Assembly: GCA_945901405.1 (NCBI GenBank)
Contig: CAMDLH010000005.1
Span: 1-64,000, forward strand
Source: Bordetella parapertussis
GTDB taxonomy: Bacteria; Pseudomonadota; Gammaproteobacteria; Burkholderiales; SG8-41
Direction of reading: 5' to 3'
DNA length: 64,000 nucleotides
Part shown: piece after piece, positions 30,743-37,772 of the stretch
Position numbering within the stretch: the first letter of the stretch is position 1
Layout: every line of letters starts with the position of its first letter
Program-made: the position numbers and the translations under genes
The notes under the pieces: generated by a model
What the model saw: the letters and a program-made list of their open reading frames with translations, nothing else
The model's database searches: none
What the model was told of the DNA's origin: nothing

Positions 30743-30825
30743 GTGAAACGTGAAACGTGAAACGTGAAACGCCAACCCGCGAATATCTCCGGGGTTCGTT
30801 TCACATTTCACGTTTTACATTTCAC
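30743..30825. repeat. Heptamer-built inverted repeat between zapE and lpd
   Basis: Four perfect tandem copies of GTGAAAC (30743-30770) are followed, after a 27-base loop, by four inverted heptamers GTTTCAC, ATTTCAC, GTTTTAC and ATTTCAC (30798-30825). The two 28-base arms can pair nearly throughout. The element fills the spacer between the lpd stop and the zapE start. A related GC-richer element lies between odhA and gltA. Confidence 0.8.
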
Positions 30826-30829
30826 GCCC

Positions 30830-32254
30830 TCACAAGTTCAGAGTCCTTCCATCCACCGCCAACGCCGCTTCCTTCATCGCCTCGGACAGCGACGGATGCG
30901 CGTGGCAGATCATCGCAATGTCTTCGGAGGACGCACCGAATTCCATCGCCACCACCGCCTCGGCGATGAGTTCGGAGGCCATCGGGCCAATGATGTGCAC
31001 ACCGAGGATGCGGTCAGTGCGCTTGTCGGCGATGAATTTGACGAAGCCGGTGGTGTCACCCAGCGCGCGCGCGCGGCCGTTGGCCATGAACGGAAAACTG
31101 CCGGTGCGGTATTCGATGCCTTCGGCCTTGACCTGCTGCTCGGTCTTGCCCACCCAGGCGATTTCGGGCGAGGTGTAAATCACCCACGGCACGGTGTTGA
31201 AATCGACGTGACCGTGTTTGCCCGCGATGCGCTCGGCCACGGCGACGCCTTCTTCCTCCGCCTTGTGCGCGAGCATGGGGCCGCGCACCACGTCGCCCAC
31301 CGCCCACACATTTGCGAGATTGGTTTTGCAATCGCCGTCGACCGTGATGAAGCCACGGTCGTCTATATTCAAGCCCGCTTCCTTCGCGTTAAGGCCATCG
31401 GTATTGGGCAAGCGCCCTATCGACACGATGAGCTTGTCGACGTTCAACGTCTGCGCCTTGCCCGCACTGTCGGTGTATTCCACGGTGACACCCGCGGCAC
31501 ACGTAATCTTGCCGACCTTGACGCCCATGTGCATCGTAAGCTTTTGTTTATTAAAGACTTTTTGTGCTTCCTTGGCTACAGCCTCATCGGCCGCGCCGAG
31601 AAACGTGGGCAGCGCCTCAAGCACGGTGACCTCGGCGCCGAGCCTGCGCCACACGCTGCCCATTTCAAGACCAATGACGCCCGCGCCGATCACGCCCAGT
31701 TTTTTCGGTACTTCGTTGATCGCCAGCGCACCGGCGTTATCCAGTATCAGTTTGTTGTCGAACGGCGTGCCCGGCAACGCGCGCGGGGTTGATCCCGTCG
31801 CAACGATTACGTGTTTCGCGGTGAGCGCATCCTCGGTCTTGCCGCTGACCTTGATTTGCCACGCGCCCGCGACGCCGCCGCCGAAACTGCCCTTGCCGTG
31901 AATAAAGGTGATCTTGTTTTTCTTGAACAGATAAAGGATGCCTTCGTTGTTCTGGCGGACGACTTTATCCTTGCGCTTTAACATCTGCGCGATGTCCATC
32001 GTAAGGCCGCCAACCTTGATGCCATGTTCGGCGAAGCCGTGCGCCGCATGATCAAAATTTTCGGACGATTGCAACAGCGCTTTCGATGGAATGCAGCCAA
32101 CGTTGGTGCAAGTGCCGCCGGGCGCGGGCTTGCCCTGATCGGTCTGCCACTCATCGATGCACGCCACCTGCATACCCAGTTGCGCGGCGCGGATGGCCGC
32201 GATGTAGCCGCCGGGGCCGGCGCCGATGACTACCACGTCAAAATTTTTCGGCAT
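30830..32254 (-). CDS. lpdA: Dihydrolipoyl dehydrogenase (E3 of 2-oxoglutarate dehydrogenase)
   Basis: FAD flavoprotein that reoxidises dihydrolipoamide with NAD. The 474-residue protein has the FAD motif [19 protein letters not shown] near residues 9-27, the redox-active Cys49/Cys54 pair in [13 protein letters not shown], the NAD motif [16 protein letters not shown], and the C-terminal His-Glu pair in [14 protein letters not shown]. It starts one base after the odhB stop and is part of the odhA-odhB-lpd operon, so it is assigned to the 2-oxoglutarate complex. Confidence 0.96.
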
Positions 32255-33476: not shown

Positions 33477-33498
33477 CGTAAGTATTTGTTTTTATTAA
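33477..33498 (+). repeat. AT-rich intergenic motif, copy d
   Basis: Plus-strand reading CGTAAGTATTTGTTTTTATT between odhA and odhB, reversed relative to both genes. It contains the odhA stop codon at one end and abuts the odhB ribosome-binding site at the other. Confidence 0.55.
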
Positions 33499-36371
33499 CT
33501 TTCTTCGCCAGCCGACAAGGGTCGCGGCTGGAACTGGCGGGGCTGGCTGCCGCCCGCCAAGGTCAGCGCCTGATCGACCAGCGCTTTTTGTTGTGTGTCG
33601 TGCAGCGACTTGTAACCCGCCGCGGGTGAGGCGGATGAGTCGCGGCCTGCGTAGTACAATTTTTGATTCGGCAACAGGTTGCGCATCAGGTAATGCTGGA
33701 TGTGACGCCATGCACCTTGATTGCGCGGCTCTTCCTGACACCAAACGATTTCGGTCGCGTTTTTGTAGCGCACGATCTGCGCGCGAAATTCGTCGTGCGG
33801 AAACGGATAAATCTGCGCGATGCGCACCAGCGGCAAATCCTTGATGCCGCGCGCGCGGCGTTCGGCGCGCACATCGTAATACACCTTGCCGCTGCAAAAG
33901 ATCACGCGCTGCACCTGCTCCGCATTGATATCACGATCATCCGAATCCTCATTCACCGGGTGAAATTTATCGCTGGCGAATTCATCGAGCGGCGACACCG
34001 ATTCCTTGTGCCGCAGCAAACTCTTGGGCGAAAAAATAATCAGCGGCTTGCGATACGGGCGCACCATCTGCCGCCGCAACAGGTAATACATCTGCACCGG
34101 GGTCGCCGGCATGCACACCTGCATGTTGTAGTCGGCGCACAGTTGCAAAAAGCGCTCCATGCGCGCGGATGAGTGCTCCGGCCCCGCGCCCTCGTAGCCG
34201 TGCGGCAGCATCATCACCAGTCCGCACATGCGGCCCCATTTCACCTCGCCCGAGGCGATGAATTGGTCGATGACAACTTGCGCGCCGTTGACGAAATCGC
34301 CGTACTGCGCCTCCCAGATCACCAGTTCGTTCGGGCTTGAGGTCGCGTAGCCGTATTCAAAACCCAGCACGGCTTCTTCCGACAACACCGAATCAATCAC
34401 CACGAAATCGCCCTGCTTGGGCGCAAGATGCTGCAACGGAAGATAGGTGCCCTGATCCCAACGTTCGCGATTCTGATCGTGAAGCACGGCGTGACGGTGA
34501 AAGAACGTGCCGCGGCCCGAATCCTGCCCAGACAGACGTATCGAATAGCCCTCGGTGAGCAGCGTCGCGTAAGCCAGGTTTTCCGCCATGCCCCAATCGA
34601 GCGGTAACTGGCCCTCGGCCATCGAGCGGCGATCCTGCATGATCTTGTCCACGCGCGGATGTATCTTGAAGTTCGCCGGCACTTCGGAAATCTTGCGGCC
34701 GAGTTCCTTCAGTTTTTCCAGCGGCAGCCGCGTGTCGTCGTTTTCATTCCATTTGGTGCCCACGTACGGCGCCCAATTGGTTTCAAACGGCGGACGGTAA
34801 TTGGAAAGTATGGTCTTGTTGGTGTGATAACCGCCATCCAGCGCCTCGCGGCAGGTGGCGACCGATGCATCGGCATCGGCCTCCGTAATTACGCTCTCCT
34901 TCACCAGGCGATCGGCATAGACCTTGCGTGGCGTCGGATGCGAATGAATTTTCTTGTACATCAACGGCTGCGTCACCATCGGCTCGTCCTGCTCGTTGTG
35001 CCCCAGCCGCCGGTAACATACCAGATCGACCACCGCGTCCTTGTGGAATTTCATGCGGTAATCAAGCGCGATTTCAGTGGCGAAACACACCGCTTCGGGG
35101 TCGTCGCCATTGACATGCAGGATCGGCACTTCGAGCATTTTCGCCACGTCAGAGCAATACAGCGTGGAGCGCGAATCGCGCGGATCCGACGTGGTGAAAC
35201 CGATCTGGTTATTGATGATGAGATGCACCGTGCCGCCCGTGCCGTAGCCGCGCGTCTGCGCGAGATTCAGCGTCTCTTGCGTCACGCCCTGCCCCGCGAA
35301 AGCCGCGTCGCCGTGGATCAACACCGGCAGCACCTGATCACCCGTGTGGTCGCGGCGCCGGTGCTGGCGCGCGCGCACCGAGCCTTCGGCCACCGGGTTG
35401 ACGATCTCCAAATGCGAGGGGTTGAACGCCACCGTCACGTGCATGGCGCCGCCGGGCGTCATCACGTTGGAGGAAAATCCGTCGTGGTATTTAACGTCGC
35501 CCGCGAGCACCTGTGTGTTTTGCTTGCCCTCGAACGAGGAAAACAAATCCTTGGGCATCTTGCCCAGCGTGTTGACCAGCACATTAAGCCGCCCGCGGTG
35601 CGCCATGGCAATCACGAGTTCTTGCACACCCGCGGCACCCGCGCGCTGCAACAGGTGATCGAGCATGGGGATCAGCGCGTCGCCGCCTTCAAGCGAAAAG
35701 CGCGTCTGGCCGACGTACTTGGCGTTGAGATATTTTTCCAGCGTCTCGGCCGCGGTGAGACGCTCAAGCAGATGTTTTTTAGCTTGCGCGTCGTAGCTGG
35801 GCTGCGCGCGCACCGCCTCAAGACGCTCCTGCACCCAGCGCTTTTGCGTGAGATCGTTGATGTACATGTATTCGGCAGAGATATTGCCGCAATACGTTTG
35901 CTTCAAGAAAATCAGAATATCGCGCAACTTCATCTCGCGCGGGCCAACCAGGGTGCCGGTGTTGAACACAGTATCCATGTCGGCATCGGTCAGCCCGTAA
36001 TAGCCGGGATCGAGCTCCGGTATTTGCGGCTTTTCCTGCCGCCCCAGCGGATCGACGTTGGCGTTGCGCGCCCCCTGAAAACGATGTGCGGCGATCAACA
36101 ACAGTACCGAGAATTGCTTCTCGCCCAGCTTGGAGGCGGCGCCGGGGGCAGCCACGACACGGCGCTGCTTGCCAAGATCGACAAAGCGCTGCTGCACTTC
36201 GCTATGGGAAACATCACGCGGGCCATCGTCGAGATTCTGAATCTCGTCGAAATAGGCGCGCCAGCGCGCTTCAACCGACTGCGGGTCTTTTAGATACGAC
36301 TCGTAGAGCGCTTCGATGAATGGCGCGTTGGCGCCGAAGAGGTAGGAATTGCCGAGGAACTCTTTCATCAT
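33495..36371 (-). CDS. odhA: 2-oxoglutarate dehydrogenase E1 component
   Basis: Thiamine-diphosphate enzyme that decarboxylates 2-oxoglutarate and transfers succinyl to the E2 lipoyl group. The 958-residue length is normal. Visible are the N-terminal E2-interacting stretch (NSYLFGANAPFIEALYESYL), the central domain with LVIAMAHRGRLNVLVNTLGK, the ThDP and metal-binding part (HGDAAFAGQGVTQETLNL, then NNQIGFTTS), and the C-terminal transketolase-like domain (SGQDSGRGTFFHRHAVLHDQ). It begins the odhA-odhB-lpd operon; gltA lies upstream across the second heptamer repeat. Confidence 0.97.
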   Translation of the reverse strand: MMKEFLGNSYLFGANAPFIEALYESYLKDPQSVEARWRAYFDEIQNLDDGPRDVSHSEVQQRFVDLGKQRRVVAAPGAASKLGEKQFSVLLLIAAHRFQGARNANVDPLGRQEKPQIPELDPGYYGLTDADMDTVFNTGTLVGPREMKLRDILIFLKQTYCGNISAEYMYINDLTQKRWVQERLEAVRAQPSYDAQAKKHLLERLTAAETLEKYLNAKYVGQTRFSLEGGDALIPMLDHLLQRAGAAGVQELVIAMAHRGRLNVLVNTLGKMPKDLFSSFEGKQNTQVLAGDVKYHDGFSSNVMTPGGAMHVTVAFNPSHLEIVNPVAEGSVRARQHRRRDHTGDQVLPVLIHGDAAFAGQGVTQETLNLAQTRGYGTGGTVHLIINNQIGFTTSDPRDSRSTLYCSDVAKMLEVPILHVNGDDPEAVCFATEIALDYRMKFHKDAVVDLVCYRRLGHNEQDEPMVTQPLMYKKIHSHPTPRKVYADRLVKESVITEADADASVATCREALDGGYHTNKTILSNYRPPFETNWAPYVGTKWNENDDTRLPLEKLKELGRKISEVPANFKIHPRVDKIMQDRRSMAEGQLPLDWGMAENLAYATLLTEGYSIRLSGQDSGRGTFFHRHAVLHDQNRERWDQGTYLPLQHLAPKQGDFVVIDSVLSEEAVLGFEYGYATSSPNELVIWEAQYGDFVNGAQVVIDQFIASGEVKWGRMCGLVMMLPHGYEGAGPEHSSARMERFLQLCADYNMQVCMPATPVQMYYLLRRQMVRPYRKPLIIFSPKSLLRHKESVSPLDEFASDKFHPVNEDSDDRDINAEQVQRVIFCSGKVYYDVRAERRARGIKDLPLVRIAQIYPFPHDEFRAQIVRYKNATEIVWCQEEPRNQGAWRHIQHYLMRNLLPNQKLYYAGRDSSASPAAGYKSLHDTQQKALVDQALTLAGGSQPRQFQPRPLSAGEES

Positions 36372-36395: not shown

Positions 36396-36465
36396 GTGAG
36401 GCGTGAAGCGAGAGGCGCTTACGGCTTGCGGGGTGACGCCTCACGCCTCACCCCGCACGCCTCGC
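36396..36465. repeat. Heptamer-built inverted repeat between gltA and odhA
   Basis: The left arm has heptamers GTGAGGC, GTGAAGC and GAGAGGC (36396-36416). The right arm has GCCTCAC twice, then CCCGCAC and GCCTCGC (36438-36465), the reverse complement of the same unit. Inside lies a perfect 10-bp stem TGCGGGGTGA/TCACCCCGCA (36427-36436 and 36448-36457). The architecture is that of the zapE/lpd element but with a GC-richer unit. Confidence 0.7.
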
Positions 36466-36473
36466 GAGATTAC

Positions 36474-37772
36474 CTACTTTCTCTTGTTCATCGCCACGAA
36501 ATCGCGGCGCTCGGGTCCATTGAACAACTGGCGCGGACGGCCGATCTTGGCGTCCGGGTCGCCGAGCATTTCGTTCCACTGCGCGATCCAGCCCACGGTG
36601 CGCGCAAGCGCGAATATCGCGGTGAACATCGCAACTGGTATGCCCAGCGCCTTGTAAACAATGCCGGAGTAAAAATCGACGTTCGGATACAGTTTGCGCT
36701 TGATGAAGTATTCGTCTTCGAGCGCCACCTTTTCAAGCGCCATCGCCAGCTTGAACAGCTTGTCGTCCTTCAGATCGAGCGATTCGAGCACTTCATGGCA
36801 GGTCTTCTGGATCAGCTTGGCGCGCGGGTCGTAGTTCTTGTATACGCGATGGCCGAAGCCCATCAACATGGTGTGATCTTCCTGCACCTTAACCTTGTGC
36901 AGGAAGGCGGGAATATTTTTCACGTCGCCGATTTGCTCCAGCATTTTCAGCACCGCCTCGTTGGCGCCGCCGTGTGCCGGGCCCCACAGCGCGGCGATAC
37001 CGGCGGAGATGCACGCGAACGGGTTCGCCCCCGTTGAACCCGCCAGACGCACCGTGGAAGTGGACGCGTTTTGCTCGTGATCCGCGTGCAGGATCAGTAT
37101 GCGCTCCATCGCGCTGGTCAACACGGGGTTGGGTTTCCATTCCTCGCATGGCGTGCCGAAGGTCATGTAGAGGAAGTTTTCCACGTACGACAGATTGTTG
37201 CGCGGATACATGAACGGCTGGCCGGTCGTGTACTTGTAGGTCATCGCGGTAATGGTCGGCAACTTGGCGATCAGGCGGAACGCGGAAATCTCGCGGCTGC
37301 GCGCATCGTTAATGTTGATCGAGTCGTGATAGAACGCCGACAACGCGCCGACCACGCCGCACATCACCGCCATCGGGTGCGCATCGCGCCGGAAGCCGCT
37401 GTAAAAGCGCGAAAGTTGTTCATGCACCATGGTGTGATGCGTGACGATATCGACGAATGTGTCCAACTGACTCTTGTTGGGCAAGTCACCGTTCAAAATC
37501 AGGTAGGCGGTTTCAAGGAAGGTGCACGTGTCAGCCAACTGTTCGATGGGGTAGCCGCGGTACTGCAGAATGCCCACGTCGCCGTCGATGTAGGTGATCT
37601 TCGAGCGGCAGCTCGCGGTGGACATGAAACCCGGATCGTAGGTGAACAGCCCCGTCTTGCCGTAGAGACTGCGCACATCGATGACATCGGGGCCTTCGCT
37701 GCCGCCGTAAATCGGGAAATCCACCGACGGCTTGCCGTCGCTGAAGGAAAGAGTTGCGATTTTCTCAGCCAT
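36474..37772 (-). CDS. gltA: Citrate synthase (type II)
   Basis: Condenses acetyl-CoA and oxaloacetate to citrate. The 432-residue protein has the type II N-terminal beta domain ([18 protein letters not shown]) and the catalytic His in [22 protein letters not shown], with His and Asp in [15 protein letters not shown]. Length and N-terminal domain fit the NADH-sensitive hexameric GltA class, distinct from the shorter PrpC encoded at 42671. It lies 30 bp downstream of sdhE on the same strand. Confidence 0.97.

Follow-up and report, generated by a model that had tools for sequence, protein, structure and literature searches.

The spacer between gltA and odhA holds one copy of a dispersed family of hairpins with periodic arms that lie between operon neighbors and may act as intercistronic mRNA stem-loops, a tentative reading to which we give not quite even confidence. 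Among the possible roles, an intercistronic mRNA hairpin is the most likely that we infer. As established from the sequence, the design is predicted to form hairpins and is intra-operon, anchored at a stop codon, and independent of any particular unit. The window, that is, the whole 64,000-nucleotide stretch analyzed, belongs to a host assembly of 6.43 Mb in 327 contigs, the nearest named relatives of which are Burkholderiales/Betaproteobacteria MAGs.

The element (36396–36465, minus strand) occupies most of the 102-bp spacer, beginning 8 bp after the stop codon of the upstream gene gltA (citrate synthase; 36474–37772, minus strand) and ending 24 bp ahead of the start codon of the downstream gene odhA (2-oxoglutarate dehydrogenase E1; 33495–36371, minus strand). 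Direct reading of the plus strand gives the odhA-side arm (36396–36416) as GTGAGGC (36396–36402), GTGAAGC (36403–36409), and GAGAGGC (36410–36416). The gltA-side arm (36438–36465) carries the inverted units GCCTCAC (36438–36444 and 36445–36451), CCCGCAC (36452–36458), and GCCTCGC (36459–36465), which read GCGAGGC GTGCGGG GTGAGGC GTGAGGC on the coding strand. The units in these inverted arms follow at exact 7-base steps, and the 7-step self-similarity of the spacer exceeds that of shuffled sequences by 8.2 SD. Within the element, an inner hairpin (36427–36457) has a perfect 10-bp stem in which TGCGGGGTGA (36427–36436) pairs with TCACCCCGCA (36448–36457) around an 11-nt loop. The heptamers, the inverted GCCTCAC units, and the stem at 36396–36465 had been described in the first-pass annotation, and direct reading confirmed them. 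The RNA structure predicted for the coding (minus) strand also contains the stem and has a free energy of −50.6 kcal/mol (z −4.2), a stability reached in 0 of 200 shuffles.

A second element (30743–30825, minus strand) lies in the lpd-zapE spacer and consists of four GTGAAAC units, a loop, and the inverted units GTTTCAC ATTTCAC GTTTTAC ATTTCAC, in agreement with the GTGAAAC element noted earlier at this place. The TGA stop codon of lpd (30830–30832) continues the register, forming the next GTGA unit, and the element is predicted to fold into one long RNA hairpin with a z-score of −7.5. In an Rfam search, no family scored above the gathering threshold for the elements.

A family of like design with unlike units, as had been suggested from these two copies, extends across the genome, with a step of 7 or 8 bases and about 4 + 4 units in inverted arms. 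At least 30 elements were found in the sampled part of the window's genome (Burkholderiales), a typical one having ~3–4 units of 7–8 bp per arm. Genome-wide, GTGARRCGTGARRC occurs 36 times vs 2 for the reversed pattern, and GTGA N1-7 GTGA N1-7 GTGA gives 216 matches vs 49. GTGA-type units take the form GTGA+3 or GTGA+4, and among the matches listed the unit step was 7 in 114 and 8 in 36, with ~4–10 for each of 5, 6, 9, 10, and 11. A motif-free scan for inverted periodic arrays, covering 1.74 Mb of the window's genome and related genomes with some stretches picked around GTGA matches, returned arrays at steps 7 (33), 8 (11), 9 (5), 10 (6), and 14 (17, equal to 2 × 7). Zero arrays were found at steps 4–6 or 11–13 in this sample, and zero in Markov control sequence. 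The 7-base spacing put forward in the first-pass annotation is conserved, and 8-, 9-, and 10-base versions also occur, including the non-GTGA units CGCAGAGG/CACAGAGG, CGCAAAGGA, and ACGCAGATGA. Unit variants do not come one to an element; the same genome mixes GTGAAGG, GTGAGGC, GTGAAAC, the 8-mers GTGAATGC and GTGAACGG, and unrelated units. Inverted hairpins of the same architecture with 8-, 9-, or 10-bp units (CGCAGAGG, CGCAAAGGA, ACGCAGATGA) were seen at L169:11420-11513, L179:6619-6742, L183:1021-1193, L190:5348-5417, and L195:3357-3435, mostly between genes and beginning soon 3' of a stop codon; among non-GTGA elements, 5 of 25 lie between convergent genes.

The position of the elements relative to genes was then considered. 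Genes were taken from a home-made, uncurated codon-usage caller, which replaced an earlier, cruder one that gave less clean element placement; the placement statistics refer to the sampled part of each draft MAG, with part of the own-genome sample enriched for GTGA matches. GTGA-type elements lie between co-directional genes in 29 of 31 cases (Fisher p 0.018) and between convergent genes in one. The spacer without its element measures ≤40 bp in 27 of these 29, vs 50% of all co-directional junctions (p 9e-7, calculated against junction count), and junctions of ≤40 bp make up 7% of co-directional junction bases. Long spacers between co-directional genes account for 93% of intergenic bp and are almost unoccupied. 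Each of the 29 elements starts −12 to +16 bp from the upstream stop codon, which is itself the first TGA of the array in 14. The arm order is GTGA...TCAC in every element, with zero elements found in the reverse order (TCAC...GTGA).

These locations bear on whether the elements are intrinsic transcription terminators or attenuators, which we consider the least probable explanation and scarcely credible. The hairpin is strong, and in some relatives (e.g. L105) the gltA-odhA gap holds a GC hairpin with a T-run instead of the element. However, direct reading of the window reveals no T-run 3' of either arm, and the family sits inside operons rather than at transcript ends, as the single convergent case indicates.

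The location of the element within a transcribed operon leads us to favor its action as an intercistronic mRNA stem-loop. It would be transcribed together with the operon, and in the mRNA the stem-loop may protect the message of the upstream gene against 3' exonucleases and separate the translation and expression of its two flanking genes. This hairpin reading is supported by the excess of steps 7 and 8, the outcome of the motif-free scan, the tight fit within operons, the single arm order, the recurrent use of particular junctions described below, the filled and empty sites of related genomes, and the fold z-scores of both window elements. More speculatively, GTGA-type arms, with a TGA every 7 nt, would supply a stop in each of the three frames at the foot of the hairpin, so that ribosomes might leave before they unfold it. 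Stops occur in GTGA, GTAA, and GTTA units, and with GTTA before an A included, one is preserved in 20 of 27 one-base changes to the core, a figure inflated by established GTAA sub-units. A three-frame stop cassette was rejected as a general rule because the non-GTGA relatives lack stop codons, and it may at most be a refinement.

To compare the same junctions across relatives, 30-odd orthologous loci were retrieved by odhA, with the gltA-odhA elements of L040, L044, and L045, which fall below the score threshold, scored by eye. Elements occupy sdhA-sdhB in 9 of 25 loci, gltA-odhA in 7/30, odhB-lpd in 9/24, and lpd-zapE in 6/18, vs odhA-odhB in 0/31, sdhE-gltA in 0/29, and sdhB-sdhE in 1/28 (chi-square p 1e-6, relatedness ignored). 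On the odhA tree, element presence requires at least 3–6 changes per site. Close relatives carry different units at the same junction: odhB-lpd has GTGAGGC in L031, a GTGAGCA-type unit in L032, GTGAACGG in L040, GTGAAAC in L058, and, by eye, other periodic units in L034 and L039. Records L031, L040, L044, and L051 are titled Bordetella parapertussis MAG; their odhA places them near the window's uncultured family (81% amino acid identity for L031, L040, and L044), and the names look wrong.

A serious rival, which we regard as distinctly possible, is a non-functional dispersed repeat that arises or spreads during replication (through hairpin template switching or slippage) and survives only in tight operon gaps where it harms no gene or promoter. 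Confinement to tight junctions could indeed reflect simple tolerance. Orthologous sites in related genomes can be empty, often with spacers of ~1–30 bp, the overlap with the stop codon is seen only where units carry a stop, and GTGANNN four-unit arrays are patchy, being present in 35 of 274 genomes of the class. However, the reoccupation of four junctions and the avoidance of three neighboring ones are not expected from tolerance alone, and the long co-directional spacers that offer most intergenic sequence are nearly unused. The junction recurrence speaks against a neutral repeat, which nevertheless keeps a fair probability.

The units within an element were found to be more alike than those of different elements. 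Agreement at variable unit positions is 0.69 within an arm, 0.67 between the arms of one copy, and 0.47 between copies, and the likeness of the two arms of a copy is significant by permutation (p 1e-4). The first-pass annotation had suggested homogenization within each copy. The corresponding explanation is concerted evolution in place, in which an element is old at its site and slippage and copying from one arm to the other rewrite its units. The likeness itself, the different units at the same sites in relatives, and a hisH-side orthologous element of two congeners in which the loop is kept and the unit variants differ are all consistent with this. However, unlinked copies have a common unit order (GTGAAGG, GTGAATGC, GTGAAGG...) and common inner ends (GGTACC), so the within-copy likeness is largely subfamily structure. 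The GGTACC(CC) inner end is found in 7 of 63 loops vs 0.05 expected; it was seen in the GTGAAGG-type elements L192, L196, L201, L202, and L206 of the window's own genome. Once subfamily membership is taken out, deviant units are weakly shared within a copy (0.087 vs 0.044, p 0.043), and private homogenization within copies is marginal. Native arms pair no better than swapped arms of the same subfamily (p 0.43); arm-arm covariation beyond the subfamily that would prove a selected RNA helix was therefore not found at the level of the element, which counts against the stem-loop reading and in favor of a non-functional repeat. In addition, the tatA-tatB and petC-sspA gaps of the congeners G015 and G021, where genes were named by eye from start and end peptides, differ in both unit and loop. 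Overall, homogenization within copies is borne out in part, and concerted evolution in place as the main cause appears unlikely.

With respect to spread, whole-element copying was rejected because the loops of one genome show no relationship to each other (0 of 171 pairs with a likeness over z 4); by eye, G015 and G021 have a common GTAACCCC...GCTGATT loop as an exception. Target-site duplications were not found, flank matches equaling those of permuted flanks (p 0.38), and a transposon-derived MITE was rejected on this basis. Together with the missing link to a Y1 transposase described below, these results indicate that arms, not whole elements, are common to copies. Spread may thus proceed by copying of arms, with sequence drift held back by slippage along the arms and subfamily replacement. 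One can also possibly define a hairpin class by its design, with arms of 3–5 units at a step of 7–10 bp (GTGANNN, GTGANNNN, CGCAGAGG, CGCAAAGGA, ACGCAGATGA) that retakes particular junctions, although we hold this with clearly less than even confidence. Under such a definition, arm units are common genome-wide and loops are not, which would imply an arm-copying process other than a known transposon.

REP, BIME, and REPIN elements are dispersed intergenic hairpins, some of them in operons, with a conserved palindrome and a link to RAYT genes. Dispersal as intergenic hairpins, some within operons, is common to them and to the window family, whereas the conserved palindrome and RAYT link were not found here (for such elements, see PMC8266576 and PMC3116915). 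Mobilization of a REP/REPIN-type element by a RAYT (Y1) transposase is very improbable. The elements are palindromic, intergenic, and dispersed, and the genome contains six Y1_Tnp matches over the cut-off; however, zero GTGA arrays lie within ~3 kb of any of seven Y1_Tnp matches, so copies flanking or near a RAYT gene were not seen in the window's genome and RAYT linkage was rejected. Moreover, no palindrome is conserved across copies, as units differ and loops are unrelated, and the lack of target-site duplications also argues against it.

A literature text search for the literal unit strings returned unrelated matches only. The nearest described relative is the family of inverted GGGAATC heptamers of Xanthomonas, part of the GGGAATC/GGGGATT heptameric repeats of Xanthomonas and Nostoc that were read as G-quadruplexes (Rehm et al. 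2015, PMC4692102); in each Xanthomonas genome, 70–75 inverted pairs lie near stop codons, and most are transcribed (PMC4692102). Both families consist of intergenic heptamers, ~four units, with many inverted pairs of convergent order in Xanthomonas, placed between aligned ORFs near stop codons at sites common to species, and the window family has the two convergent arms of 7-nt units typical of Xanthomonas. In contrast to the one G-rich unit per genome of Xanthomonas and Nostoc, units here vary within a genome and have 8–10-bp relatives, and the fit from stop to start is tighter than the mean of 160 nt to the downstream ORF in those repeats. GTGAGGC, GTGAAGC, and GTGAAAC have GG at most, so the runs of three or more G in four units needed for a G-quadruplex are missing. 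Most descriptions of inverted heptamer repeats so far concern one G-rich unit, whose sequence was taken as the explanation. Here the unit is free and architecture and address stay the same, so no reading tied to one sequence can hold in general.

The TAACTGA repeats of Beggiatoaceae (MacGregor 2015, PMC4679880) are likewise intergenic heptamers with a stop codon within the unit. However, they are direct, almost never inverted, lie just 5' of start codons, and have one fixed unit, unlike the window family. Heptanucleotides are also the most abundant class of long simple sequence repeats according to Mrazek et al. 2007, as cited in PMC4679880; in that summary, the preference for a 7-nt step, with slippage proposed, is common to both, whereas those repeats form tandem arrays and the window family forms paired inverted arms at operon junctions.

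In distant genomes rich in GTGANNN arrays (G288, G286, G211), mostly long direct arrays and hardly any inverted junction elements were found, and the junction design may therefore be mostly confined to the window's family. The direct GTGANNN-type arrays of G288 and G286 (e.g. L258, L260, L267) run to at least ten units, in contrast to the short inverted form. Within the family, G001 has 82 occurrences of CRRAGTGCRRAGTG, the reversed control pattern, suggesting another genome-specific heptamer. Finally, one site is filled in one of the congeners G015 and G021, whereas the other has a gap of a few bp there. Because a given operon gap can be filled, empty, or filled differently from one sister genome to the next, the role of these intergenic heptamers is directly testable by transcript comparison.
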